A DNA stretch of 61,384 nt, taken from positions 1 to 61,384 of IMG/VR virus record IMGVR_UViG_3300037961_004286; one strand, written 5' to 3'. Shown piece after piece: positions 17,105 through 56,364 of the stretch; the stretch's first letter is position 1; each line of letters begins with the position of its first letter. Made by a program: the position numbers and the translations under genes. Below the pieces are notes generated by a model. That model was not told where the DNA came from, did not search any database, and saw only the letters and a program-made list of their open reading frames with translations. The stretch comes from a virus.

Positions 17105-17112
17105 TATTTATA
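17105..17112 (-). promoter_or_regulatory. late promoter TATAAATA 4 nt before a minus-strand ATG
   Basis: Read on the minus strand, TATAAATA runs from 17112 to 17105, followed by TAAT and the ATG at 17100. The 4-nt spacing equals that of five plus-strand late genes and suggests a leaderless transcript. Confidence 0.6.
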
Positions 17113-18800
17113 TGTGCGGAATAAATGGTATTACATCTCCTAATCAATTCGATAGAATAGATAAGATGATGGAGTACACTTATAAAAGAGGACCTGATGG
17201 AAAAGACGTTTATAGTAATGATGACGTTACATTTGGTCATAACCTTCTTGCTATATTTTCTGACATAGATAAATCTAAACAACCATATCATTATGAAGAT
17301 AGTGTACTTATCTTTAATGGTGCTATCTATAATTATAAAGAACTTGATGAATGGAATAGTCAATCAGGTACAGATACTGAAGTACTAATAAAAGGTTTAT
17401 ATCATTATGGTATAGATTTTATGAATAGATGTGAAGGTATGTGGGCTTTTGCATTTTATAGAAAAGGTTATACTATTATATGTAGAGATCATTTTGGTAT
17501 AAAACCTCTTTACTACAGACATAATGGTAATGAGTTAGTATTCTCATCTTCTATAAATGCTTTAGAAGTAGAAGATAAAAAACTTGATATGTTTGCTTTT
17601 AGTTTATACAATGCTTTTGGTTATGTTCCTGGATATCTAACTCTACTAAAAGGTTGTTACAAACTATGTCCAGGAGAATACATTACACATACAAAAGATA
17701 GTTTTAGTTCTGGTAATCTTTGGTATAGTAAAAAGTTTAGTATAGGTGAATATAATAAAGAAGAGTTTGTTTCTAAACTAGAACAAGCAGTAAAAAAGAG
17801 CTATGTAGGAATAAGACAGAGAGGTATCTTTTTATCAGGAGGACTTGATTCAACCTCTGTAGCTCATTTTCTTGGTGAAAAAAATACTTTTACTAATAGA
17901 TATACAGCAATAGATGAGCAGGTTAATGATGATGCTAACGTTGCTAAAAAAATGGCAGATGATTATAAATTTAACCATGAAGAGGTTATTATTACTCCTG
18001 AAATATTTTACGATAACATAGACGAATCCTTAGATAGCTTAGAACTTCCTGTGTTTAATAAATCTACTCCTTCTTATTTTTATATGAATAAAATAATGAG
18101 ATCTAAAAATACTATAGTAACTTATTCAGGAGACGGTGGAGACGAAATGTATACAGGTTACTCTGTTCATGGTCAATACGGTAACTATGAAGATCCTATA
18201 GAAGATCACTTTGAAACTATAAGCTGGAAGAAAAAGAAACAATTAAAGTTTACTAATGACAGTCTTTATATGACTAAGCAAAAATATCTATCTTATATGC
18301 ATAACTGGTTTCCTAAAAATGTATTCGGAAATGATCATATCAATAACTGTTTATTTGTTGAAATGATTACTAGAGTATCAGAAGATTTTTTAACTAGAAA
18401 TGATAAGTTTGGTTCTAATTTTGGAATGGAAGGTAGATTTCCTCTACTTAATTTGCCTTTCTATATGTATGTTATGTCTATTCCTTCTAATATTAAGATG
18501 AAAAATTTATCTATAGAAAATTTTAAACCTGGTGAATATAAATTTTTAGCTAGGAACAGTTTAAGTAATATCTTACCTGATTATGTTACTACAAAAAGTA
18601 AGTCTGGATGGTCTATTCCTGATGCTGAATGGAGAAAACAAGAAGATAAATTTATATCTAAAATGACAGATATAATTAAAGAGCCTCTCAATAATAATTT
18701 AGATAGTATTATTGATTGGAACTCTTCTAATGGACCTAAAACTTTTTATGCAGCTGTATTTCTTAAACAATGGTTGAAGAAGCACTCTATCAGCTTATAA
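17112..18800 (+). CDS. asnB: asparagine synthetase (glutamine-hydrolysing) AsnB-like
   Basis: The 562-residue protein begins MCGINGI, exposing the catalytic Cys2 of a class II glutamine amidotransferase after Met removal, with RGPDG and NGAIYNY typical of AsnB. The synthetase domain follows with the PP-loop SGGLDSTS (about 245) and the GDGGDE-type segment SGDGGDEMYTGY. It would make Asn, or amidate another carboxylate, using Gln and ATP. The ATG lies on the divergent late promoter of the GIY-YIG gene, and no Shine-Dalgarno is visible. Confidence 0.9.
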   Translation: MCGINGITSPNQFDRIDKMMEYTYKRGPDGKDVYSNDDVTFGHNLLAIFSDIDKSKQPYHYEDSVLIFNGAIYNYKELDEWNSQSGTDTEVLIKGLYHYGIDFMNRCEGMWAFAFYRKGYTIICRDHFGIKPLYYRHNGNELVFSSSINALEVEDKKLDMFAFSLYNAFGYVPGYLTLLKGCYKLCPGEYITHTKDSFSSGNLWYSKKFSIGEYNKEEFVSKLEQAVKKSYVGIRQRGIFLSGGLDSTSVAHFLGEKNTFTNRYTAIDEQVNDDANVAKKMADDYKFNHEEVIITPEIFYDNIDESLDSLELPVFNKSTPSYFYMNKIMRSKNTIVTYSGDGGDEMYTGYSVHGQYGNYEDPIEDHFETISWKKKKQLKFTNDSLYMTKQKYLSYMHNWFPKNVFGNDHINNCLFVEMITRVSEDFLTRNDKFGSNFGMEGRFPLLNLPFYMYVMSIPSNIKMKNLSIENFKPGEYKFLARNSLSNILPDYVTTKSKSGWSIPDAEWRKQEDKFISKMTDIIKEPLNNNLDSIIDWNSSNGPKTFYAAVFLKQWLKKHSISL

Positions 18801-32978: not shown

Positions 32979-33574
32979 ATGTATTTTGTCTCGATAGAGA
33001 CCCTATGAAAGCTGCACATATGATGTGCGATAAACATGTAGTTAAGATGATAGTAGAGACTTGTCAGATTCTATCTGCAGTTCTAGATAACAACTACACT
33101 ACTAAAGAGGATATTAAACCTTCTGTGCAACTAGGTACAGCAGGATATCCTCCTGCTCATGTAAAGCATCCTTCTACTATGTGGGCTATGGAAGCTAAAG
33201 GTAACTATAAATGGCTAGTTAAACATCTAAGAGGTTTATGTATAGAATATTCTAGACGCTATAATAAAACTCATAGTATGGAAGGTCAGCTTATGATCTT
33301 CGAAGGTCAGTTACCTCATCTTTCTTTTGCTAAAGAACGAAAAACTGAGTTTGTTCAAGCTATAACAGATAAAAGATGGCACCGTAAAGACCCTATCGAA
33401 GCTTATAGAGTGTACTATAACATGGAGAAGTTTACGTTTGCTAAATGGAAACTAGGTAATGTACCTGATTGGTATACAGGTGCACCTCAATATATTGTAG
33501 AATTGGAGAAGAAATATGCCGCACTTATCAACGAAGACTTACGGCCACGAAAACGGACTAAGTTGCGCGTTTAG
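32975..33574 (+). CDS. conserved phage protein, CDKHVVKM family
   Basis: The ATG at 32975 (MNVFCLDRDPMKAAH) overlaps the previous stop. The 199-residue product carries MMCDKHVVKMIVETCQILS, HPSTMWAMEAKGNYKWL and DPIEAYRVYYNMEKFTFAKW, strongly conserved in a family of phage proteins of unknown function. The conserved Cys, Asp, His and Lys suggest an enzyme. It directly precedes and overlaps queD by 59 bp, so a link to the base-modification pathway is possible but unproven. Confidence 0.65.
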   Translation: MNVFCLDRDPMKAAHMMCDKHVVKMIVETCQILSAVLDNNYTTKEDIKPSVQLGTAGYPPAHVKHPSTMWAMEAKGNYKWLVKHLRGLCIEYSRRYNKTHSMEGQLMIFEGQLPHLSFAKERKTEFVQAITDKRWHRKDPIEAYRVYYNMEKFTFAKWKLGNVPDWYTGAPQYIVELEKKYAALINEDLRPRKRTKLRV

Positions 33575-33992
33575 ACAGCCTAATGCTACTCACTCTCATT
33601 GTTCTCGCATTCATGGTTATGCTTTATCGTTTAAGTTTACTTTTGGTTGTAGAGAGCTAGATGATAAAAACTGGGCTGTAGATTTTGGTAGTCTTAAGAA
33701 GTTAAAAGAATGGTTAGAAGATAACTTCGATCATACTCTAGCTGTTGATTATGCTGATCCTATGAAAGAAACTTTACAAGATCTAGCTCGATATGATATA
33801 GTAAAGATTAGGTTGTTCGACGGTGTAGGGTGTGAAAAGTTTGCTGAACATGCTTTTTGTTATGCTGATAGACTTATTGATGAAATGACGGATGGAAGAT
33901 GCTTTGTTGAATCCTGTGAGGTAAGTGAGCATGGTGCTAATAGCGCTATCTATACACCTTACCATGTAAAGAGAGAAAGATTTGTCGGATAA
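33516..33992 (+). CDS. queD: 6-carboxytetrahydropterin synthase QueD
   Basis: The 158-residue protein belongs to the PTPS/QueD family. His residues in KTYGHENGLS, THSHCSRIHGYALSFKF and FDHTLAVDY match the zinc-binding and catalytic positions of the phage-type enzymes. QueD converts dihydroneopterin triphosphate, the FolE product, into 6-carboxytetrahydropterin. GGAG precedes the ATG by 8 nt; the start lies 59 bp inside the previous gene. It opens the 7-deazaguanine cluster. Confidence 0.85.
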   Translation: MPHLSTKTYGHENGLSCAFRQPNATHSHCSRIHGYALSFKFTFGCRELDDKNWAVDFGSLKKLKEWLEDNFDHTLAVDYADPMKETLQDLARYDIVKIRLFDGVGCEKFAEHAFCYADRLIDEMTDGRCFVESCEVSEHGANSAIYTPYHVKRERFVG

Positions 33993-34221
33993 GATAATTA
34001 GACTAACTGAGCTCTTAGATCATAAGCTTAGAAAAGAAAAAGAGTTAGCTTATTATAGAGAGCAGTTGTTAGAGATACAAGATAAAATTGTAACTATGCA
34101 AAAAGATTTAGATTTAACTAAACTTATAATAGAAATTATTCAAGCTGAAAAAGTAGTAGATATAGAACAAAAAGTAAGAGATGCAATTCCAGTCTTAGGA
34201 GTAAATGATAAAGAACTATAA
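33982..34221 (+). CDS. hypothetical coiled-coil protein
   Basis: The 79-residue, highly charged helical protein starts at TTG 33982, overlapping queD by 11 bp. Residues about 5-60 have the heptad-like pattern of a coiled coil. Not recognised; it lies between queD and queE. Confidence 0.5.
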   Translation: MSDKIIRLTELLDHKLRKEKELAYYREQLLEIQDKIVTMQKDLDLTKLIIEIIQAEKVVDIEQKVRDAIPVLGVNDKEL

Positions 34222-34258
34222 ATGTATTTTACTTATAATAATATAAATGGTGAGATAA

Positions 34259-35161
34259 ATGACTGAAAAGAAATATTACTACTCAGAGATCTTTAACTCT
34301 ATTCAGGGTGAAGGTACTTATACTGGTGTGCATACTTTATGGCTAAGATACTTTTTGTGTAACTTACAATGTGATGGATTTGGTCAGATAGATCCTACTA
34401 ACCCTGATACTTATGAATTACCTTATGATGACTTTGATGCTATGTCTGTTAACAGAGTAGAAGATCTTCCTGTTTGGTCTAAAGGGTGTGATAGCTCTTA
34501 TACCTGGTCTAAAAAGTTTAAGCATCTTATGGGTCAAAAGACAGCTAAAGATATTGCTAGAGAAATAGTTATGGCTAATATGAATGAGCATAACTTAGCG
34601 GGAAGCTTCCTACATCCAGTAAGCAATCAACGTTCACATATGTGCTTTACTGGAGGTGAACCTCTTATGAAGCATGCTCAAAAATGTTCTATAGATATTT
34701 TACAATTTTTTATCGATACAGAAAATATTCCAGGTAGTACTACTTTCGAAACTAATGGTACTCAGAAGTTAACTGATGAGTTTAAAGACTGGTGGGCTAC
34801 AAGCGGAGAAGATTTAGAGTTATTTTTCTCTCTTAGTCCTAAGCTATGGACAGTTGCAGGTGAAAAGAGAGAAAAAGCTATCAAACCTGAATTTGTAGCT
34901 GAATATAGAGAATTATCCGATAGAGGTCATCTTAAGTTTGTTCTAGGTTCAGAAAAAAGACAATGGGATGAACTTGATGAAGTAATTAAGCTATTCAGAG
35001 ATGAAGGAGTAGATTACCCTGTCTTTATTATGCCTGTAGGTGCTAGAGAAGAAGAGCAAACTGCTACTGCAGGAGAGGTAGCTAAAATGGCTTTCGATAG
35101 AGGTTATAATGTCTCTGGTCGTATGCATGTATATTTGTTTGGTAATGCTATAGGAACGTAA
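34259..35161 (+). CDS. queE: 7-carboxy-7-deazaguanine synthase QueE, with an insertion in the radical-SAM Cys motif
   Basis: QueE is a radical SAM enzyme that forms 7-carboxy-7-deazaguanine from carboxytetrahydropterin. SIQGEGTYTG at the N terminus, CFTGGEP, TTFETNGT and LSPKLW are the family signatures. The iron-sulfur motif is split: Cys34 and Cys38 (CNLQC) are separated from Cys77 (KGCDSSYTW) by 38 residues, where B. subtilis QueE has CxxxCxxC directly before DS..TW. At 300 residues it is longer than the bacterial enzyme. It is preceded by TGAG and a 37-nt gap. Confidence 0.92.
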   Translation: MTEKKYYYSEIFNSIQGEGTYTGVHTLWLRYFLCNLQCDGFGQIDPTNPDTYELPYDDFDAMSVNRVEDLPVWSKGCDSSYTWSKKFKHLMGQKTAKDIAREIVMANMNEHNLAGSFLHPVSNQRSHMCFTGGEPLMKHAQKCSIDILQFFIDTENIPGSTTFETNGTQKLTDEFKDWWATSGEDLELFFSLSPKLWTVAGEKREKAIKPEFVAEYRELSDRGHLKFVLGSEKRQWDELDEVIKLFRDEGVDYPVFIMPVGAREEEQTATAGEVAKMAFDRGYNVSGRMHVYLFGNAIGT

Positions 35162-35162
35162 G

Positions 35163-35540
35163 ATGGGTAAGTGGATATTTTTGGCTTTAATTTTTATCTG
35201 GTATTTTGGTTTTGTAGCTACTTTTGCTTTCGGTCAAACTAATCAAGATTGTACCTATGTTAATAAAATAGAGCATGGATTAGACGGAGAAATAATTAGC
35301 TCAACTCAAGAATATATTTGCAAAACTCCTCCTAAAGTTATAGAGATTCACACATACCCTAATAAAAAAGCTCATGATGTAATGCAAACTCCCGTATATG
35401 GTTTAACTTTAGATTCATACGAAAATCCTACTCAAGTTCTTTATAATATGAATACGGAAATACAAATGAATAGAGCTATTACTCAAAGTAATTTACGATT
35501 TATTACTACGTTTGGTAATTTTTTGTCAATGTTTAATTAA
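35163..35540 (+). CDS. hypothetical exported or membrane-anchored protein
   Basis: The 125-residue protein has an N-terminal hydrophobic segment (WIFLALIFIWYFGFVATFAFG) that could be a signal peptide or anchor. Two Cys in the mature part (QDCTYV, YICKTP) could form a disulfide. No family is recognised. It begins 2 nt after queE and precedes a lipoprotein gene, so the pair may act together in the envelope. Confidence 0.55.
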   Translation: MGKWIFLALIFIWYFGFVATFAFGQTNQDCTYVNKIEHGLDGEIISSTQEYICKTPPKVIEIHTYPNKKAHDVMQTPVYGLTLDSYENPTQVLYNMNTEIQMNRAITQSNLRFITTFGNFLSMFN

Positions 35541-35550
35541 GAGGTGTAAA

Positions 35551-36186
35551 ATGAGAAACATTGCATATATCGCAGCAGGTACTCTAGTACTTGGTGCTTG
35601 TTCGTCTAACGATACTGCTGAGTTAATGATCGAAGATCCTATTAAGTATAATACTGAAAAGGTAGAGAATCAGATTGATGAGATTCCTAGCTGGTATCTT
35701 GAGCATCCTAAGACTGAAGAGATTATCTTCTCGTCAGGTACTGCTGTAACTCCTGATATGCAATTGTCTATGGATATTGCTATTCTAAATGCTAAGACTA
35801 CGTTAGCAGATAGAATTAATGGTCGTTTGTCATCTAAGACTAAGAACTTTGTTCAACGTATTGGGTCAAATGATCTAGATGCAGCTGTTGCTATGGATAT
35901 TCAGAGAGTAACTACTAATCTTATCGCTGATGTAGATGTTGCTGGCTATGCAGTAGATAAGTCAGAGATTATTCAAGACGGTCCTCAGTATAGAGCATAC
36001 GTTCTGCTAGCATACTCTGACAAAGAAGCTAATAAGATTCTAGTTAATCGTCTTCGAAAAGATAAAATGCTTTTAGATAAACTTTCTGCTACTAATGCTT
36101 ATAAAGATCTAGAAGATAGCGTTGCTGCTAAGAAAGAAAAAGATCTCGATGAGATGGAATTAATAGTAAAGGGTTTAAGTAATTGA
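35551..36186 (+). CDS. putative lipoprotein, LPP20-like
   Basis: The ATG at 35551 (MRNIAYIAAGTLVLG) has AGAGGTG upstream. The signal sequence ends in a lipobox, LVLGAC, predicting lipidation of Cys18. The mature part contains IPSWYLEHPKTEEIIFSSG and AILNAKTTLADRI, reminiscent of LPP20-type outer-membrane lipoproteins. It overlaps folE by 4 bp. Its place within the deazaguanine operon is unexplained; superinfection exclusion or host envelope change are possibilities. Confidence 0.7.
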   Translation: MRNIAYIAAGTLVLGACSSNDTAELMIEDPIKYNTEKVENQIDEIPSWYLEHPKTEEIIFSSGTAVTPDMQLSMDIAILNAKTTLADRINGRLSSKTKNFVQRIGSNDLDAAVAMDIQRVTTNLIADVDVAGYAVDKSEIIQDGPQYRAYVLLAYSDKEANKILVNRLRKDKMLLDKLSATNAYKDLEDSVAAKKEKDLDEMELIVKGLSN

Positions 36187-36872
36187 AGGTATCTGATAGA
36201 ATAAATGAATGGATGCGCAAAGACGGTAAACGTTTTTGGGCAGGAGATAATATCTCCGAATATATGACTGATAAGACTAAAGACGCTCTAATAGATGAGG
36301 CTACTGTTGCATTCGAAGGTGTACTCGATGCTCTCCTCATCGATAGAGAGAATGATCCTAATTCTCATGGTACAGCTAGAAGGTTAGCTAAAATGTACTA
36401 TAATGAGATTATGGCAGGAAGATATGATCCAATGCCTAAAGCTACTGCATTTCCTAATGACGGAGATGATAGATATGAAGGTATGTTAGTTGTAAGATCT
36501 GAGTTAAAATCTATGTGCTCACATCATCATCAGCCAGTAGCAGGTATAGCATATATAGGTATTATCCCCGGAGATAAAGTTATTGGACTGTCTAAATATA
36601 CTAGAATAGCTCAATGGTGTGCACGAAGAGGTACCTTGCAAGAAGAGCTTTGCAATGATATAGCCAGAGAGATTCAGAAAGCTACTGAAAGTGAAAACGT
36701 AGCTGTATATATTCAAGCAACGCATGGTTGTTGTGAGAATAGAGGTATAGGAGCTCATAGTTCTTTAACTCAAACTGCGGTCCTAAAAGGACATTTTCTA
36801 GATGATAATATGACTACGAAGAAAGAGTTCTTCGATCATATTAACCTTCAACAACAATTTGCACCAAAATAA
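36183..36872 (+). CDS. folE: GTP cyclohydrolase I
   Basis: The 229-residue enzyme converts GTP to 7,8-dihydroneopterin triphosphate, the first step to both folate and 7-deazaguanines. Zinc ligands are in SMCSHHHQPVAGIAYI and THGCCENRGIGAHSS; IPGDKVIGLSKYTRI and WCARRGTLQEEL also match the family. The start is TTG at 36183, overlapping the lipoprotein gene by 4 bp. Within this cluster its product feeds QueD. Confidence 0.95.
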   Translation: MKVSDRINEWMRKDGKRFWAGDNISEYMTDKTKDALIDEATVAFEGVLDALLIDRENDPNSHGTARRLAKMYYNEIMAGRYDPMPKATAFPNDGDDRYEGMLVVRSELKSMCSHHHQPVAGIAYIGIIPGDKVIGLSKYTRIAQWCARRGTLQEELCNDIAREIQKATESENVAVYIQATHGCCENRGIGAHSSLTQTAVLKGHFLDDNMTTKKEFFDHINLQQQFAPK

Positions 36873-36882
36873 GGAGAATAAA

Positions 36883-37488
36883 ATGTTGAAAGAATGGTTC
36901 AATTTACAGGATGTGAATAGAGAGCTTCTAATGAAGCTTGTAGCTTTACATCTAGTAATTATTGCTGCATCGAATTATATCGTGCAGTTTAGTGGCACAA
37001 TCTTTGGTTATCACTTTACGTGGGCTATGTTTGTGTTCCCTCTAGTTGTTATTGCTACAGACTTGACTGTACGATTAACAAATAAGTATCAAGCTAGATC
37101 TGTAGTAGCTCTAGCATTTCCTCCAGCAATCATTATTAGCGCAATGCTAGCTGATTGGCGTATTGGTTTTGCTAGCGCATTTGCATATCTTATTGGTCAG
37201 TTGTTTGACGTATCAGTCTTTCAACGTATTAGAGAAAAATTTACTGAAATGTGGTGGGTAGCTCCTGCTATCTCTACTGTAGTAGCTAATGTAGTAGATA
37301 CTTATCTATTCTTCTGGGCTGCATTTAGTAATCATGCAACTAATGAATTTATGGCTGCTAATTGGCTAGAAATTGCTACAGTCGATGTATTCTTTAAGAT
37401 TGCTACCTCTCTAGTATTGTTCTTACCTATCTATGGTGTGCTTTTGTCATACCTTAAGAGTAGAATGAACGTAACTTCAGCAGGTTAA
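36883..37488 (+). CDS. yhhQ: YhhQ-family queuosine-precursor transporter
   Basis: The ATG at 36883 (MLKEWFNLQDVN) has AAGGAG 7 nt upstream. The 201-residue membrane protein has about five or six hydrophobic segments and the family motif in VFPLVVIATDLTVRLTNKYQAR. YhhQ imports preQ0 and preQ1 across the inner membrane. With full synthesis genes also present, this phage could both make and salvage the base. A strong terminator follows. Confidence 0.88.
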   Translation: MLKEWFNLQDVNRELLMKLVALHLVIIAASNYIVQFSGTIFGYHFTWAMFVFPLVVIATDLTVRLTNKYQARSVVALAFPPAIIISAMLADWRIGFASAFAYLIGQLFDVSVFQRIREKFTEMWWVAPAISTVVANVVDTYLFFWAAFSNHATNEFMAANWLEIATVDVFFKIATSLVLFLPIYGVLLSYLKSRMNVTSAG

Positions 37489-37498
37489 ACTTTATAAT

Positions 37499-37529
37499 AG
37501 AGAGAGCATACAAGCTCTCTCTTTTTTTT
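37499..37529 (+). terminator. intrinsic terminator between yhhQ and dpdA
   Basis: AGAGAGAGC (37499-37507) pairs perfectly with GCTCTCTCT (37514-37522) across ATACAA, followed by eight T. It divides the deazaguanine cluster into two transcripts, unless read-through occurs. Confidence 0.9.
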
Positions 37530-37539
37530 CGAGGTAAAT

Positions 37540-38319
37540 ATGAAAATAGCGCATGAAGCTCCTTTAAGTATCTTTGATAAGGTACAACAACTTACTGACT
37601 ATGATTATTTTCTAGTTCATCTATTTGAAGAAAATATAGCTTATCTTGAAAAAGCTTATGAATGTGTTGGTAATGGAAGAGAGACTATTTTAGATAATTC
37701 TATATTTGAGCTAGGAACAGCTTGGGATGCAGAAAGATTTGCATACTGGGTTGAAAAGATGAAACCTACTTATTATATTATACCTGATGTTTTAGATGAT
37801 AGCGCAGGTACTCTAGATTCGTTTGAGAAGTTTACTGAACAATATAAAGATCTGCCTGGTAAGACTATAGCTGTTGCTCAAGGTAGTAGCTACGACGACT
37901 TAGTTAAATGTTATAATTATCTTGCATATGATAATAGAGTTCATAAAATAGCTTTATCGTTTAATCATCCTTTCTTTCAAGACTATGAAGGTCAAAATAA
38001 GTATGAAAAGATGTTAAATGGCAGACAAGATACCTTACGTAAGATGGTAGAAGAAGATGTTATCAATACAAATAAACATCATCATCTACTAGGTTGTGGT
38101 TTACCGCAAGAGTTTAAAGAGTATAGAAAGTATCCATGGATAGATAGTTTAGATACCTCTAATCCGGTGATACATGGTATGAAAGGTATATGGTACGATG
38201 CTCAAGGATTGCAAAATAAAGAATCAGTAAAACTATATACTCTGATTAACGAAGATGTAAATGATCGCTGGGGAGAGATAGAGTATAATATTAAGACATT
38301 TAGGAGTTATTGTCGATGA
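37540..38319 (+). CDS. dpdA: DpdA-like DNA guanine transglycosylase
   Basis: The 259-residue protein resembles phage DpdA, a tRNA-guanine transglycosylase relative that exchanges guanine in DNA for a 7-deazaguanine. Visible features are ILDNSIFELG with a candidate nucleophilic Asp, YYIIPDVLDD, HKIALSFNHPFF, LLGCGLPQEFKEY and WIDSLDTSNPV, arranged like the TIM barrel of TGT enzymes. The queD-queE-folE-queF-queC context supports it strongly. The DpdA subfamily cannot be assigned here. GAGG precedes the ATG; it overlaps the next gene by 4 bp. Confidence 0.85.
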   Translation: MKIAHEAPLSIFDKVQQLTDYDYFLVHLFEENIAYLEKAYECVGNGRETILDNSIFELGTAWDAERFAYWVEKMKPTYYIIPDVLDDSAGTLDSFEKFTEQYKDLPGKTIAVAQGSSYDDLVKCYNYLAYDNRVHKIALSFNHPFFQDYEGQNKYEKMLNGRQDTLRKMVEEDVINTNKHHHLLGCGLPQEFKEYRKYPWIDSLDTSNPVIHGMKGIWYDAQGLQNKESVKLYTLINEDVNDRWGEIEYNIKTFRSYCR

Positions 38320-38840
38320 AGTGGATAGCATTGTTCTCTCAAACAGGAACTGAAATTAGAGATCTGTCTGAAAAATTAGGCAGATCTCCTGATCTTATCT
38401 ATACTAATAATAGATCTAACGATATATGGCAAAGAGTGTTGCATGAAGTTGACTCTCAAGTACTAGTATTCAACCATATAGATATTATGAATAGAATTAA
38501 GAATTATCAAAAAGATGCTCTTATTACTTTGCATGGTTATCTTAGAATTATACCTGAAGATGTATGCAGAGAATGTAATATTGTAAACGGTCATCCAGGT
38601 CTAATTACGGAATATCCTTGGATGAAAGGTAAAGACCCTCAAGAAAAAATAGAACCTTGGATGGCATGGATTGGTTCTGTAGTTCATAAAGTAGCACCTG
38701 AAGTAGATGCTGGTCAGGTTCTTACTGAAGATAGAATAGCACTAAAGGAAGCAGAAACATTCAAGGGTAATTACTATAATATGTTAAGAATTACTAGCTT
38801 GAATGCATGGGAGAAATATTTTGAAGAGTATCAGACCTAA
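38316..38840 (+). CDS. dpdN: formyltransferase-like protein, DpdN candidate (dPreQ1 formyltransferase)
   Basis: The ATG at 38316 (MKWIALFSQTGTE) has TAGGAG upstream and overlaps dpdA by 4 bp. The 174-residue protein keeps the PurN/Fmt catalytic triad: Asn91 and His93 in NGHPGLITEYP, and Asp131 in VAPEVDAGQVL, with LHGYLRIIP matching the PurN core. Phage DpdN has been predicted to formylate preQ1 in DNA to 7-(formylamino)methyl-7-deazaguanine. The position directly after dpdA fits that role better than purine synthesis, but the substrate is inferred. Confidence 0.8.
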   Translation: MKWIALFSQTGTEIRDLSEKLGRSPDLIYTNNRSNDIWQRVLHEVDSQVLVFNHIDIMNRIKNYQKDALITLHGYLRIIPEDVCRECNIVNGHPGLITEYPWMKGKDPQEKIEPWMAWIGSVVHKVAPEVDAGQVLTEDRIALKEAETFKGNYYNMLRITSLNAWEKYFEEYQT

Positions 38841-39078
38841 TCACTATCGTGCTGAACGCATGGTAGAATTTGAGTGTATTAAAGTTATTGAAGCGTTGTG
38901 TGATGATCATCAGAATGATGTATATACTGACTATAATCGTTATCAGGCGTTTAAGTATCTATGGCGTCTAGGTAAGAAAGATGATGTATTGCAAGAGTTG
39001 TATAAAGCAGCTACGTTTATTAATTTTGCTATTGAGAAACTAGAGAAGGATAGAGGCATTGCAAATGAACAAGATTGA
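38821..39078 (+). CDS. DUF3310 family protein
   Basis: The start is TTG at 38821 (MKSIRPNHYRAERM), with GGGAG 7 nt upstream; an earlier in-frame ATG lacks a good site. The 85-residue product matches DUF3310 (SaV-like) phage proteins: RPNHY, ECIKVIEAL, YQAFKYLWRLGKKDD and LYKAATFINFAIEKL. Some members are nucleotide kinase-like regulators in annotation only; the true function is unknown. It overlaps both neighbours. Confidence 0.75.
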   Translation: MKSIRPNHYRAERMVEFECIKVIEALCDDHQNDVYTDYNRYQAFKYLWRLGKKDDVLQELYKAATFINFAIEKLEKDRGIANEQD

Positions 39079-39979
39079 AGATATTGCTAGTCAGCATTTA
39101 GGACGTACTTCTGACGGAGGTACTATGACTCGTTATGAAACTCCGGATGCTGTAGATAGCAGCTTACTGGTAGGTATACCTCGTCATTTGAATAGAGAGG
39201 CTTATGAGATTACAGATAAAGACTTTATCGGGAGTGATACTTGGCATGCTTATGAAGTGTCTTTTCTTCTATCAAGCGGATATCCGGTATCTGGTGTAGT
39301 AAAGTATGTTTATGAATCTGATACTCCTAATATTGTAGAGTCTAAATCGATTAAGCTATATCTTAACTCTTATAATATGGCTGTAATGGGTAATGATATA
39401 AAGACAGCTACTCAGAAAGCTATTGAGATGATGGAAAGAGATCTTACTCAATGTATTGGTGGTAGAGTACAAGCACAGTTTCATAGTAAAGCATTTGGAG
39501 ATCCTGTTTCTGAATCATATATTAAGCTAGAAGATGTCGTAGATGTATCTGAAGTATCGTTTGATAGATATAATGAAGATCCTGATATTTTAGAAATCAT
39601 AGAAGTAGAAGATAGAGAGGTTACTAAGTATACTACCAATGCTCTTCGTTCTAACTGTCGTGTAACTAACCAACCCGACTGGGGTGATATCTATATCTAT
39701 ATAGAGGGTGATAGTACTGTTACTCCTGAATCGTTACTGCAGTATATTGTTAGTATGAGAAGAGAGAATCATTTTCACGAAGAAATTTGTGAATGTGTAA
39801 TTAAACGACTAATGGTACTTATGCCTAAATGTGATATTGCAGTAGCTTGTCTCTATACTCGTAGAGGTGGGATTGATATTAATCCAGTTAGAGGTACAGG
39901 ACCTTTAGCTCTTATGAGATCTGGCTTTAGTGATCTACAAAGTGTAGAACAAGCTCCTATGAAGACTGCGAGACAGTAA
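39065..39979 (+). CDS. queF: NADPH-dependent 7-cyano-7-deazaguanine reductase QueF (long form)
   Basis: The ATG at 39065 (MNKIEDIASQHLG) overlaps the DUF3310 gene by 14 bp. The 304-residue protein is the two-module type found in E. coli. It has the preQ0-binding segment ESKSIKLYLNSYN at 92-104, catalytic Cys198 (LRSNCRVTNQPDWGD) and Asp205, plus YIVSMRRENHFHEE and YTRRGGIDINP. QueF reduces the nitrile of preQ0 to the aminomethyl group of preQ1. Its presence indicates that a preQ1-type base is made. Confidence 0.95.
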   Translation: MNKIEDIASQHLGRTSDGGTMTRYETPDAVDSSLLVGIPRHLNREAYEITDKDFIGSDTWHAYEVSFLLSSGYPVSGVVKYVYESDTPNIVESKSIKLYLNSYNMAVMGNDIKTATQKAIEMMERDLTQCIGGRVQAQFHSKAFGDPVSESYIKLEDVVDVSEVSFDRYNEDPDILEIIEVEDREVTKYTTNALRSNCRVTNQPDWGDIYIYIEGDSTVTPESLLQYIVSMRRENHFHEEICECVIKRLMVLMPKCDIAVACLYTRRGGIDINPVRGTGPLALMRSGFSDLQSVEQAPMKTARQ

Positions 39980-40782
39980 TGATGCAAGAAAGACATACAG
40001 CATATATTAAGAGGAGATTTGCTCAGATGGAAAAACTAGATCAAATGATGGGTAGATTACCTATTACAGATAAAAAAGTTATTGTAACTCATAGTGGTGG
40101 TATGGATAGTGCTACTGCAGTTATTCTATGTGCTAAGATGTATGGTGCCGAAAATGTTATCTCTCTAGGATATTTCTACGGTCAGAAGCAGAGTGTAGAA
40201 TTAGACTATGCAGAGCGTTTATGCGCAGAGTTAGGGGTAACTAGACAGGTTATAGATCTAGGTATCTTAGGTCATATTGTAAAAAATGTATCAGCTAATA
40301 TTGCAGGTACAGATGTAGAGATGCCTACTATAAAAGATATTCTAGGTAATCCTCAACCTCCTACTTATGTGCCTTATCGTAATATGATTATGTTTTCGCT
40401 TACTGCTGCTTTTGCTGAAGCTAATGCTGCTTCTCATATTGTATGTGGTTTGCAAGTACATGATGAGTATAGTTATTGGGATACTACTCAGAAGTTTGTA
40501 GATGGATTGAATAATATCTACGATCAGAATAGATCTTGGCCTCTTACTTTGATTGCTCCTTTTGCTGATCTGTCTAAGACAGAAGAGATTAGTTTGCTAG
40601 AAGAGATGGATAGTACACATTTACTTAAGCATACTCTAACATGCTATGATCCTATTACTAAGGATGGTCATGGTATTGCTTGTGGTAAGTGTCCTTCTTG
40701 TTCAGAACGCATTCAAGCGTTTATGAATAAAGGTATGAAAGATCCTATTGAGTATGCTATCGATATTCCATGGAGTAACTAA
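39979..40782 (+). CDS. queC: 7-cyano-7-deazaguanine synthase QueC
   Basis: The 267-residue protein converts 7-carboxy-7-deazaguanine to preQ0 with ATP and ammonia. It has the PP-loop SGGMDSATA near residue 39, YVPYRNMIMFSLTAAFAEA, GLQVHDEYSYWDTT and the zinc-binding CGKCPSCSER near the C terminus. ATGs at 39979 and 39982 are both possible. It is followed with a one-base overlap by a glutamine amidotransferase that could supply its ammonia. Confidence 0.95.
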   Translation: MMQERHTAYIKRRFAQMEKLDQMMGRLPITDKKVIVTHSGGMDSATAVILCAKMYGAENVISLGYFYGQKQSVELDYAERLCAELGVTRQVIDLGILGHIVKNVSANIAGTDVEMPTIKDILGNPQPPTYVPYRNMIMFSLTAAFAEANAASHIVCGLQVHDEYSYWDTTQKFVDGLNNIYDQNRSWPLTLIAPFADLSKTEEISLLEEMDSTHLLKHTLTCYDPITKDGHGIACGKCPSCSERIQAFMNKGMKDPIEYAIDIPWSN

Positions 40783-41405
40783 TGTGTGCTATCTTTGGTT
40801 CATGGGATAAAGATAAGTTTTATGAGCTAGCTAAACTTAATAGTTATAGAGGTTCTCATAGTTATTCTATAGCTTATTATGATAGAAAGAAAGTAGCTCT
40901 TCTTACTCAGGGGTTTGGTGAATTTCCAGAAGTAGATCTAGATAAAAATTATTATTATATAGGTCATGTACAAGCTCCTACTACTGATAGTAAAGATGAA
41001 TCGTCTATTCATCCTGCTAATGATATGGGAGACTATCTATGGCATAACGGTATAATAAAAGATTATCAAATAAAAGTATGGCAGAATGCTTGGGATAAAG
41101 ATTGGACCTGGGATACTAAATGGTTATTGCATCTTATCAATGCAGGAGACATAGAAGGTACTCTATCTGAAGCTGATGGGTCCTTTGCTTGTTTATGGTA
41201 TGGTAAATATAATCCTTCCATTTATCTCTTTAGAAACGATAACTGTCCTATGTTTATTAACGGTCATGACTTCTCTTCTACTAAGTTTAATGGCGCAGAA
41301 AGTATAGAAAGCGGTCAGTTCTATTCTTATAATATGAAAGACGGGTGGGTAAAAGATAGAAGAACTTTTAAGACGAAAAATAAATTTTATTGGAGTGCTG
41401 GATGA
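40782..41405 (+). CDS. stand-alone class II glutamine amidotransferase
   Basis: The 207-residue protein begins MCAIFGSW, exposing Cys2 as the Ntn nucleophile, with SYRGSHS, YYIGHVQAPTTDS and HNGIIKDY matching the glutaminase domain of PurF/AsnB enzymes. No synthetase domain follows. It overlaps queC by one base. GAT-QueC fusions are known in some archaea and phages, so this looks like the unfused form: an ammonia donor for QueC, or for amidation of preQ0 to an archaeosine-type base. Confidence 0.82.
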   Translation: MCAIFGSWDKDKFYELAKLNSYRGSHSYSIAYYDRKKVALLTQGFGEFPEVDLDKNYYYIGHVQAPTTDSKDESSIHPANDMGDYLWHNGIIKDYQIKVWQNAWDKDWTWDTKWLLHLINAGDIEGTLSEADGSFACLWYGKYNPSIYLFRNDNCPMFINGHDFSSTKFNGAESIESGQFYSYNMKDGWVKDRRTFKTKNKFYWSAG

Positions 41406-41554
41406 AAGATAGAATTAAGAAATACTACTGGGCATTTCGTCAGTGGTGGTTTGAACATGATAGTATAGAGTTAGTATTATTTGCTAGTATATTTGGTTTT
41501 ACAGGCTGGATGGCTTATCATGCTATATTAGGTATTATAGGGAGATTTAGTTAA
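41402..41554 (+). CDS. small membrane protein
   Basis: The 50-residue ORF starts in an ATGA overlap and ends in a TAATG overlap. A basic aromatic N terminus (MKDRIKKYYWAFRQWW) is followed by one transmembrane segment (about 22-47). The tight coupling supports it; not recognised. Confidence 0.55.
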   Translation: MKDRIKKYYWAFRQWWFEHDSIELVLFASIFGFTGWMAYHAILGIIGRFS

Positions 41555-41910
41555 TGAGTAATTTTACTAGAATAAAAGATTGGTCTGATGAAAGACTAAT
41601 CACGTTTAACGAACCTGATCGAAATGGTTTTATCGCTATGATTGTAGAAGAGTGCGGTGAGTTCTTAGAAGCTAAGGATAATATAGATGGCAGAATAGAT
41701 GCTATGGCTGATATGATTGTCTTCTGCTATGGTGAGATGGCTAAGTATGGTTATGATGGTGACAAAGTTATGGATGAGGTAATAAAAGAGATATCTTCTC
41801 GTACTGGTGCATATGACCCAGCTACTAAAAAATGGCAGAAAGATAAGTCAGATGAAGCTATGGCTAAGTGGTATCAAGCAGACTTTAGTAAGTGCAAATT
41901 GGATGAATGA
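41554..41910 (+). CDS. MazG-like nucleotide pyrophosphohydrolase
   Basis: The 118-residue protein has the all-alpha NTP pyrophosphatase pattern MIVEECGEFLEAKD followed by RIDAMADMIVF, giving the EExxE and DxxAD metal-binding sites. It is a single domain, half the length of E. coli MazG. Such phage enzymes hydrolyse (d)NTPs or have been proposed to affect ppGpp. It overlaps a second MazG-like gene by 8 bp. Confidence 0.8.
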   Translation: MSNFTRIKDWSDERLITFNEPDRNGFIAMIVEECGEFLEAKDNIDGRIDAMADMIVFCYGEMAKYGYDGDKVMDEVIKEISSRTGAYDPATKKWQKDKSDEAMAKWYQADFSKCKLDE

Positions 41911-42172
41911 TAATCTAGATAAACAGCAGCAGCTTATGGTTATTACTATGGAAGAGTGTGCTGAGTTACAGGTAGCTTGCAGTAAGATACTTCGACAAGG
42001 AACTAAAGTAACTGAAGAAAAACTTAAAGAATTAACAGAAGAGCTTGGAGATGTTTATTGCATGATTCAACTTATGCATGAACATGGATTTGTTGAGTCT
42101 AAAGATCTTAATGAAAGAGTACAAGTCAAAAAACAAAAACTAGAGAAATGGAGTGATCTAGTTGGACGGTAG
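41903..42172 (+). CDS. second MazG-like nucleotide pyrophosphohydrolase domain
   Basis: The ATG at 41903 (MNDNLDKQQQLM) is chosen because the longer frame would overlap the previous gene by 100 bp. The 89-residue product contains TMEECAELQVACSK and ELTEELGDVYCMI, again an EExxE/ExxD pattern of the MazG fold. Two adjacent, diverged single-domain copies may form a heterodimer. It overlaps the following oxygenase by 11 bp. Confidence 0.75.
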   Translation: MNDNLDKQQQLMVITMEECAELQVACSKILRQGTKVTEEKLKELTEELGDVYCMIQLMHEHGFVESKDLNERVQVKKQKLEKWSDLVGR

Positions 42173-55140: not shown

Positions 55141-56364
55141 ATGAATTTACCTACCCCTAAAGAAGTTTTTGCTAAAAACAAGATGATTTATCTTTCACAA
55201 GCTATCAATAAAGATACTTGTAGACAGTTAACTGAAAGAATGTTCTCTCTTAAAAAAGAAGGTAAACTTGTTCAAGATGAACAATGTCCTCTTTCCTGGT
55301 CAGTTTATGGTGACGAGGTTTTTGATAAAATTTTAGCTGACATGGCACCACATCTGTCTGAACAATTAGATATTGAATTGTTACCAGCTTATACCTATGC
55401 TAGAATATATCAAAATGGGGAAGAGTTAAAAAGACATAAAGACAGACCTGCTTGCGAAATATCAGGAACTATTACTTTAGGTTATGATGAGGATAGTATG
55501 TTATGGCCTATCTTTATGGGTAAAGATGATGATCCGGTAGGAGAAGCTGTTTTAATTGAAGTAGGTGATCTATTAATGTATAGAGGTACAGAAATGGATC
55601 ATTGGAGACCTCCTTACAAAGGTAAATGGCAAGTTCAATTATTTTTTCATTATGTTGATAAAAATGGACCTCACGCTGAATGGGCTAGAGATAAAAGAAA
55701 TGAATTTTTCAAAGGTACAGATGATCGCTTAGGGTATGAAGTTAATTACAATGGTGTAATGCTTAAGACGACAGATTTTGATTTTCCTGGAGTAAGTTGT
55801 TTTCATAGCAATTTCAATCCCGAGTATACATTCTCAAAAGAAGAATGTGAAAAAATAATTTCTTTAGCAGATCAAATGTATGGTGACAAAGCTAAAATAG
55901 GTGATAAAGGAGGTTCAGGAGTTTACAATCCTAATATTAGAGCAGTAGATAATTATAATATAGAATTAAATGATAAAAATAGATGGATTTTTGATAAAGT
56001 TATTAGAGCGGTTGGTAAAGCCAATTCAGAATATTATAAATTTAATTTAATGGGTATAAATCATTCTATTCAATTACTGCATTATAAATCTTCTGAAAAA
56101 GGTCATTACGATTGGCACATGGATACAGGTTCAGGATCAAACTGTACAAGAAAAATATCTATATCTATACCATTAACAGATAGAAATTCTTATGAAGGTG
56201 GTGACTTAGAAATTAATGATGTTGTAGGAACAATTAAAGCTATTGATGAGCAAGGTTCAATTTCTTTCTTTCCTAGTTTTTTGTCACATAGAGTTTCACC
56301 TGTTACAAAAGGTGAAAGATGGGTTATGGTTATTTGGGTAAACGGTTCGGATAGATTCAAATAA
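55141..56364 (+). CDS. tandem 2OG-Fe(II) oxygenase
   Basis: The 407-residue protein holds two oxygenase domains. The first (about 1-185) has LKRHKDRPACEISG (HxD) and MDHWRPPYKGKWQVQLFFHY (distal His and Lys). The second (about 215-405) has HYDWHMDTGSG (HxD) and FLSHRVSPVTKGERWVMVIW (distal His and Arg), as in PKHD-type hydroxylases. Lying between fibre genes, it may hydroxylate virion proteins or surface glycans; the substrate is unknown. Confidence 0.82.
   Translation: MNLPTPKEVFAKNKMIYLSQAINKDTCRQLTERMFSLKKEGKLVQDEQCPLSWSVYGDEVFDKILADMAPHLSEQLDIELLPAYTYARIYQNGEELKRHKDRPACEISGTITLGYDEDSMLWPIFMGKDDDPVGEAVLIEVGDLLMYRGTEMDHWRPPYKGKWQVQLFFHYVDKNGPHAEWARDKRNEFFKGTDDRLGYEVNYNGVMLKTTDFDFPGVSCFHSNFNPEYTFSKEECEKIISLADQMYGDKAKIGDKGGSGVYNPNIRAVDNYNIELNDKNRWIFDKVIRAVGKANSEYYKFNLMGINHSIQLLHYKSSEKGHYDWHMDTGSGSNCTRKISISIPLTDRNSYEGGDLEINDVVGTIKAIDEQGSISFFPSFLSHRVSPVTKGERWVMVIWVNGSDRFK

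Follow-up and report, generated by a model that had tools for sequence, protein, structure and literature searches.

A phage cassette predicted to place formylated preQ1 in DNA, with a kinase slot that suggests base exchange in the nucleotide pool

The closest described relatives of the system discussed here are phages with 7-deazaguanine bases in their DNA, in which genes for preQ0 or preQ1 synthesis are found together with a DpdA transglycosylase. The names fdPreQ1, DpdN and DpdA3 reportedly come from Cui et al. 2023, who are said to have predicted DpdN to be a dPreQ1 formyltransferase. The Flavobacterium phage vB_FspM_immuto_2-6A (hereafter immuto), the nearest isolate, is presumably the fdPreQ1 phage of that work, and we take DpdA3 to be its subfamily name for DpdA of the type shared by immuto and Campylobacter phage CP220. 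Complete replacement of dG is reported for the genus of CP220 (PMC10273834), the only genus for which the literature examined reports this, and escape from restriction has been shown for other 7-deazaguanine phages (PMC6884629).

Here we describe a cassette of this kind in a phage from an uncultured sample, the IMG/VR virus record IMGVR_UViG_3300037961_004286, analysed over its full 61,384 bases (the window). The record holds T4-type replication genes, and its DNA polymerase has its nearest relative in cyanophage syn9 (41%). The cassette is an intact run of plus-strand genes from 33516 to 42172, MazG-like genes included, that unites preQ0/preQ1 synthesis genes with a DpdA transglycosylase, as in the known phage 7-deazaguanine DNA modification systems. 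A second IMG/VR contig (57,643 bases) carries a DpdA and a formyltransferase identical to those of the window. An earlier sequence-only reading had proposed an apparently complete 7-deazaguanine pathway at 33516-41405 that ends in a formyltransferase. Its core claim stands, its open reading frame positions on the plus strand agree with ours, and the genes it named are all present; it had, however, overlooked the DUF3310 gene, the class II glutaminase that follows QueC, and both MazG-like genes, and the range actually closes with the glutaminase (40782-41405). Three findings discussed below, on the glutaminase, the slot for a kinase and the exchange of DpdN for other acyltransferases, go beyond it.

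On balance, we favour the reading in which the cassette makes DNA with formylated preQ1 in the place of guanine, probably near-completely, by exchange in the nucleotide pool. In the route that we infer from the gene content, FolE, QueD, QueE and QueC would produce preQ0, with ammonia for QueC coming from the adjacent glutaminase, and QueF would convert preQ0 to preQ1, while YhhQ may bring in a precursor. A MazG-like enzyme would turn deoxyguanosine triphosphate (dGTP) into the monophosphate (dGMP) and lower the dGTP level. The compact DpdA, with its tRNA-guanine transglycosylase (TGT) fold, would then exchange guanine for preQ1 on dGMP and not in DNA, DpdN would formylate the aminomethyl group with 10-formyl-tetrahydrofolate, and the DUF3310 protein (in relatives, a P-loop kinase) would phosphorylate the modified dGMP. 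A host nucleoside diphosphate kinase could complete the triphosphate, which the phage polymerase would incorporate. By analogy with the other 7-deazaguanine phages, such DNA would presumably let the phage escape restriction. If true, these genomes would be copied from a pool with tailored 7-deaza-dGTP in the place of dGTP. Total replacement of G can be imagined by two routes, either through an altered nucleotide pool or by a transglycosylase with access to all of the G in DNA, and the kinase linkage described next makes the pool route directly testable with purified proteins.

DpdA, the kinase slot and the site of base exchange

The window's DpdA has no Pfam or NCBIfam match, and a sequence search of solved structures with it returned nothing; only fold comparison linked it to TGT. 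Its predicted structure (mean predicted local distance difference test score, pLDDT, 92.9, built from 30 aligned sequences) has a best Foldseek match at 6e-8, all 50 rows among the matches listed being TGT, and aligns with archaeosine TGT 1iq8 in VIA-align (Z 17.6, root-mean-square deviation 2.9 over 231 residues). By motif reading, not by superposition, the invariant D52 (LDNS) and D205 (ID..DTSNP) may be equated with D89 (DSGGF) and D264 (ID..DCVMP) of E. coli Tgt. Homologues from isolates (25 records in total) occur in the Flavobacterium immuto phages (50%) and the Campylobacter CP220-type phages (38-39%), with weak matches elsewhere, and a scan of the genomes of 84,980 prokaryote species gave five contigs with a relative (to judge by their titles, four from metagenome-assembled genomes, MAGs, and one from a metagenome bin). 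The identities to immuto and CP220 (Table 1) extend over 99-100% of the length, the protein groups with that of CP220, and it is distinct from DpdA1 and DpdA2, which places it in the DpdA3 subfamily. Its family profile had no match in the control records of 9g, CAjan, Dp-1 and nt-1, nor in any of 80 DpdA1 and 10 DpdA2 loci (a control set that was not dereplicated and in which some loci are shortened by contig ends).

Gene neighbourhoods were counted by clusters defined at 90% identity. A first census, to which the window, immuto and CP220 belong, covered 64 clusters made up of 107 loci in which DpdA is complete; an extended set of 191 loci (168 with DpdN) in 93 clusters repeats some of the earlier contigs, and its locus counts are not independent. 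The related loci are the best 80 of 542 (relatives of DpdA), the best 80 of 110 and the best 80 of 98, and the census thus leans to near relatives. Eight loci that repeat counted contigs were left out, as were three (L066-L068) with a truncated or missing DpdA.

What stands out is the slot between DpdN and QueF. Among the 58 clusters of the first census with DpdN and then QueF, it holds a P-loop kinase in 33 and a DUF3310 gene in 25, never both and never neither; in the extended census (79 such clusters) the split is 54 to 25, again with none holding both or neither. Three of the 33 P-loop-kinase slots also contain a MazG- or NTPase-like gene. A DpdA tree made by a quick method, with 61 labelled rows, requires six or more switches of slot type, at least four of which are forced by supported branches. 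The mutual exclusion is valid for the slot only: in four loci (L009, L010, L037, L042) QueF is followed by a DUF3310 gene although the slot is taken by a P-loop kinase, and in six more (L044-L048, L104) DUF3310 genes occupy the slot as well as the position after QueF.

Of the 86 loci that have a downstream stretch of 2.5 kb or more, 84 carry a kinase-type gene of either sort no farther than 4.5 kb from DpdA; in the two exceptions (L076, L008) one lies farther away, in L076 as DpdN and DUF3310 together some 7 kb off. In the extended set this holds for 76 of 79 clusters whose downstream stretch is 3 kb or longer (exceptions L076, L008 and L219). Profiles of both families match in none of the 80 DpdA1 and none of the 10 DpdA2 loci, and the annotations of the examined 9g, CAjan, Dp-1 and nt-1 stretches name no nucleotide kinase, many genes there being hypothetical. 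MazG- or NTPase-like genes occur in none of the 90 control loci but in 27 of 50 DpdA3 clusters for which 4 kb or more of downstream sequence is available; the first such gene of the window is a possible candidate for the dGTP-to-dGMP step.

T7 gp1.7 carries a DUF3310 domain (4.5e-23), as does the window's protein, and the slot family aligns with gp1.7 residues 118-181 (hhalign E 2.7e-8). Phosphorylation of dGMP and dTMP is described for gp1.7 (PMC12846349; see also PMC10700055). Since the slot alternates with a P-loop kinase and gp1.7 carries DUF3310, we propose the window's DUF3310 protein as a candidate kinase for modified dGMP. Among the matches listed in the open-licence literature, no paper makes such a link between deazaguanine and DUF3310 or a kinase, to go by titles, the opening lines of abstracts and the excerpts of PMC12783734, PMC8342488, PMC12846349 and PMC12398825; a paper outside that literature may do so.

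Because a kinase-type gene is linked to DpdA in the DpdA3 loci and was not found in the DpdA1 and DpdA2 loci, we regard pool exchange with full replacement of G as the better reading; the linkage suggests that the base is swapped in the nucleotide pool rather than in finished DNA. For the same reason, along with the absence of profile matches in the DpdA1 and DpdA2 loci, the earlier claim of a DpdA-like transglycosylase inserting preQ1 into DNA agrees with our results in part: the fold argues for the transglycosylase, whereas action on DNA in the manner of the well-studied DpdA is less supported. A modified dGTP was in fact once proposed for the Campylobacter phages, which were then classed as lacking DpdA (PMC6884629); CP220 does carry the window's DpdA family, beside a kinase.

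Alternatively, DpdA might exchange G for preQ1 in finished DNA, where DpdN would formylate it, so that part of the G only is modified and the kinases serve the general supply of deoxynucleoside triphosphates. Partial modification is indeed on record: DpdA and Gat-QueC of phage 9g modified 5.5-18% of plasmid G in E. coli (PMC6884629), a Vibrio phage with QueF had 15% dPreQ1, and nt-1 had 0.1% dPreQ0 (PMC12028318). The TGT fold of the window's DpdA would suit such a role as well. These supporting phages, however, have other DpdA types, and the kinase linkage (76 of 79 DpdA3 clusters versus 0 of 90 DpdA1/DpdA2 loci), the complete replacement in the genus of CP220 (PMC10273834) and the fusion of a kinase to an acyltransferase (see below) argue against modification after replication, which we consider unlikely.

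Several points nonetheless weigh against exchange in the pool. At the sequence level, hhalign gave no link between this DpdA and TGT or DpdA1, and the MAG contig L219, which has a 34% DpdA homologue beside an intein-bearing family B polymerase, gave no profile match for a Que gene or a kinase in the surrounding 5 kb. The kinase profiles derive from DpdA3 loci, and unlike kinases in the control loci could escape them. The window's DUF3310 protein has 91 residues against the 196 of gp1.7, of which only 64 are aligned; its structure model is weak (pLDDT 72.5) and without an informative structural match, and its sequence profile found no useful match among solved structures. The P-loop kinase matches AAA_28 best in Pfam; among solved structures its best relatives are NadR kinases, followed by a deoxynucleoside kinase and thymidylate kinases, and Streptomyces phages carry a homologue of it without any annotated 7-deazaguanine gene in the vicinity. 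A MazG-like gene lies in the stretch examined in no more than 27 of 50 clusters, and the fully modified DNA of CP220 does not itself show that DpdA acts on nucleotides.

In one of these Streptomyces phages, Karimac (L215), the P-loop kinase homologue overlaps a methyltransferase gene and a MazG gene lies about 6 kb away; no 7-deazaguanine gene is annotated in the 18.6 kb examined.

The formyltransferase and its GNAT counterparts

The formyltransferase start overlaps the dpdA stop by 4 bp, seen as ATGA in the sequence, and N91, H93 and D131 are intact by count, both as the sequence-only reading had it. In the clusters of relatives, too, the gene follows dpdA, often with a 4-base overlap. The family, the Asn-His-Asp triad and the homology to the immuto protein (39% identity over 173 residues) identify it as DpdN-type. 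For 79 DpdA clusters the sequence continues 3 kb or more downstream of DpdA: DpdN and QueF occur together in 70 of them, QueF with no DpdN within 4.5 kb in six, neither gene in three and DpdN alone in none; that DpdN was not seen without QueF in these clusters fits preQ1 as its acceptor.

It is highly improbable, in our view, that the protein, as PurN or as some other folate enzyme, serves to raise purine synthesis in the host and has nothing to do with the DNA base. The family (Formyl_trans_N) and the best named matches, which are PurN, speak for that idea, but the score on the PurN model TIGR00639 is 32.5 bits against a cut-off of 150.1, which puts the protein outside PurN, and the match to E. 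coli PurN is weak (25% over 95 residues). The gene is moreover seen with QueF only and follows dpdA. Clustering with PurN rather than phage DpdN had been listed earlier among the signs that would count against the reading; the protein belongs with the immuto homologue. Three patterns, S[QN][ST]G.E[IL], N[GV]HP[GA] and G[KLI][DH]PQ, fit every one of the 18 family members in our alignment but fail on E. coli PurN, although they were picked after viewing that alignment. At the place of the first pattern, PurN has GNGSN, presumably the loop that binds the phosphate of glycinamide ribonucleotide.

Our search of the open-licence literature found no paper that joins DpdN or formylamino with 7-deazaguanine, and a paper outside it may exist; among the matches listed, the on-topic papers, as far as their excerpts go, mention no term other than dPreQ1 or name Cui et al. 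by title (PMC12783734, PMC12028318, PMC11515303).

In four lineages, DpdN appears to be replaced by ACYLTRANSFERASES. They keep DpdA, the kinase and QueF, have no DpdN in the examined stretch, and all four have a GNAT domain within the cluster, either fused to the P-loop kinase, directly after it, in an FkbH-GNAT protein or immediately upstream of DpdA (Table 1). A separate cluster (L249) likewise combines an FkbH-GNAT gene with an epimerase-like gene, its contig ending before QueF, and in L218, a fragment of 3.8 kb, neither DpdN nor GNAT was seen. Profiles made from these GNAT genes match in none of the 168 DpdN loci, and two GNAT families searched in 30 DpdN records (27 clusters, chosen from the 168) match in three, the nearest about 15 kb from DpdA.

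This distribution suggests an amine-capping slot filled by either DpdN or a GNAT; where kinase and GNAT are fused, the amine may be capped while the base is still part of a free nucleotide. A GNAT in the place of DpdN would predict new acylated DNA bases (N-acyl-preQ1) in those phages. We know of no N-acyl-preQ1 base in DNA, and among the matches listed in the open-licence literature none concerns acylated preQ1 in DNA, to go by title and start of the abstract. Taking these strands together, we put forward, tentatively and with somewhat more doubt than belief, a wider proposal: DpdA3 would exchange the base of free dGMP, DUF3310 would be a minimal P-loop-less kinase interchangeable with a P-loop kinase, and the tailoring slot would serve amine acylation in general, by DpdN or GNAT.

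preQ1 supply and neighbouring genes

The earlier claim of a full set of genes from GTP to preQ1 is borne out by Pfam, PHROG and NCBIfam profile matches to FolE, QueD, QueE, QueC and a bimodular QueF (Table 1). Several NCBIfam equivalog models match QueD, QueE, FolE, QueF and QueC under their curated cut-offs (for QueF, TIGR03138 gives 214 bits against 293), which we ascribe to divergence of the phage versions.

Table 1. Genes of the cassette in the window, followed by GNAT genes in related loci that lack DpdN
Feature	Position	Strand	Evidence and remarks
QueD	33516..33992	+	PF01242 2e-14; phrog_2389 4.8e-38
QueE	34259..35161	+	phrog_2076 9.6e-52
FolE	36183..36872	+	PF01227 1.1e-38; TTG start as listed, later ATG possible
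YhhQ-type queuosine precursor transporter	36859..37488	+	PF02592 1.1e-21; ATG at 36883
DpdA, CP220/immuto type	37540..38319	+	50% to immuto, 39% to CP220; TGT fold
DpdN-type formyltransferase	38316..38840	+	PF00551 30.8 bits, gathering score 26.1; 39% to immuto
DUF3310 protein, proposed modified-dGMP kinase	38803..39078	+	PF11753 32.1 bits, cut-off 24
QueF, bimodular	39059..39979	+	PF14819 2.5e-26 (QueF_N), PF14489 1e-17 (QueF); ATG at 39065
QueC	39979..40782	+	PF06508 3.4e-45; SGGMDS loop and zinc-type cysteines kept
Class II glutamine amidotransferase	40782..41405	+	PF13522 30.4 bits, cut-off 27; Cys2 present
MazG/PRA-PH-like pyrophosphohydrolase	41554..41910	+	PF01503 28.2 bits, cut-off 21.3
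Second MazG-like protein	41807..42172	+	phrog_4856 5.8e-18; PF03819 19.3 bits, below cut-off 22
GNAT fused to P-loop kinase	L294:9816-10769		Likewise in L295
GNAT	L217:7477-7923		Directly after kinase; weakly amidoligase-like gene (below cut-off) precedes it
FkbH-GNAT protein	L269:6918-8441		Also in L268; with epimerase-like gene
GNAT	L088:2990-3403		Also in L090; immediately upstream of DpdA

QueF has both QueF domains and retains, in the alignment, the equivalents of E. coli Cys190, Asp197, His229 and Glu230, which we take to be the key residues, so that the protein belongs with the QueF nitrile reductases. The YhhQ-type protein scores 109.9 bits on TIGR00697 (cut-off 50.95), in line with the transporter announced in the sequence-only reading, and is plausible as a salvage importer of a precursor.

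The glutaminase is most likely the ammonia source for QueC. Counting the first profiled gene that starts no more than 700 bases after QueC, 31 of 41 clusters have a glutaminase, seven YhhQ, two QueE and one MazG. Homologues (E up to 0.01) occur in 67 phage records, KVP40-type phages among them, and the "hypothetical protein" after QueC in Vibrio phage nt-1 (L118:12099-12707) is of the same family (4e-46).

A further alternative has QueC and the separate glutaminase producing archaeosine (dG+), with QueF acting like QueF-L. The fused Gat-QueC of phage 9g makes dG+ (PMC6884629), and a glutaminase adjoins QueC both in the window and in nt-1, whose DNA has mainly dPreQ0 and some dG+ (PMC6884629). 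In the window, glutaminase and QueC are separate genes and not the fusion that characterizes the Gat-QueC archaeosine synthase and is found in 9g. QueF, furthermore, is bimodular with equivalents of Cys190, Asp197 and His229, an amine formyltransferase would be useless in that route, and YhhQ stands in for the glutaminase in one set of relatives. We therefore rank this reading as low as the PurN one. Least probable of all is that preQ1 mainly feeds queuosine in host or phage tRNA: the same enzymes serve that synthesis, as suggested for phages without DpdA (PMC6884629), but neither DpdA nor DpdN is known to take part in the tRNA route, and ARAGORN found no tRNA gene in the window.

Some further observations concern the neighbourhood. 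The probable radical-SAM cysteines of QueE are C34, C38 and C77; an insert moves the third one away, so that 38 residues separate it from C38. Among 131 QueE-profile open reading frames of more than 200 residues in related loci, 56 have the arrangement C-x3-C-x(34-40)-C, one the canonical arrangement and 74 neither, fragments included. A phosphoribosyltransferase gene (PF00156, e.g., L001:9840-10235) occurs in many 7-deazaguanine clusters with all three DpdA types, with profile matches in 27 of 80 DpdA1 and seven of 10 DpdA2 loci and none in the cluster of the window; it might recycle the released guanine. Elsewhere in the window, a 562-residue protein (17112-18800) matches phrog_16728 (7.7e-84), a family that weakly matches QueC as well, and a single 407-residue protein (55141-56364) matches PHROG families named ferrochelatase and 2OG-Fe(II) oxygenase.

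Comparison with known systems

Phages 9g and CAjan (DpdA1) and nt-1 (DpdA2) resemble the window in that genes for 7-deazaguanine synthesis adjoin a transglycosylase gene; in nt-1 the glutaminase after QueC is shared as well. They differ in that the DpdA types share no profile match, no DUF3310 or P-loop kinase match lies nearby and DpdN is absent.

Immuto is far closer, with QueD, QueE, FolE, DpdA, the formyltransferase and QueF in the same order; in its record the DpdA and Que gene names were given by the depositor. Its slot holds a P-loop kinase instead of DUF3310, a phosphoribosyltransferase is present, no glutaminase or YhhQ profile match lies within the 24.8 kb examined, and QueC, as immuto_3-5A shows, is placed about 15 kb upstream of dpdA. 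CP220, a Firehammervirus with 7-deazaguanine DNA, shares a homologous DpdA followed by a homologous P-loop kinase, but has no DpdN or QueF profile match within the 24.8 kb examined and carries a gene with HD and P-loop domains just before DpdA.

The Z-DNA phages (PurZ, MazZ, DatZ), where MazZ turns dGTP into dGMP for PurZ (PMC8342488), offer an analogy only: if our model is right, both systems would substitute a base at the level of the pool with a MazG enzyme supplying dGMP, whereas the base and the key enzyme are different. With T7 gp1.7, finally, the window's protein has the DUF3310 domain in common and thereby shares part of the gp1.7-type kinase, although not its full architecture, as nothing in it corresponds to the N-terminal 117 residues of gp1.7. 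The kinase linkage found here suggests a concrete function, the phosphorylation of a modified dGMP, for the stand-alone DUF3310 proteins that are common in phages.

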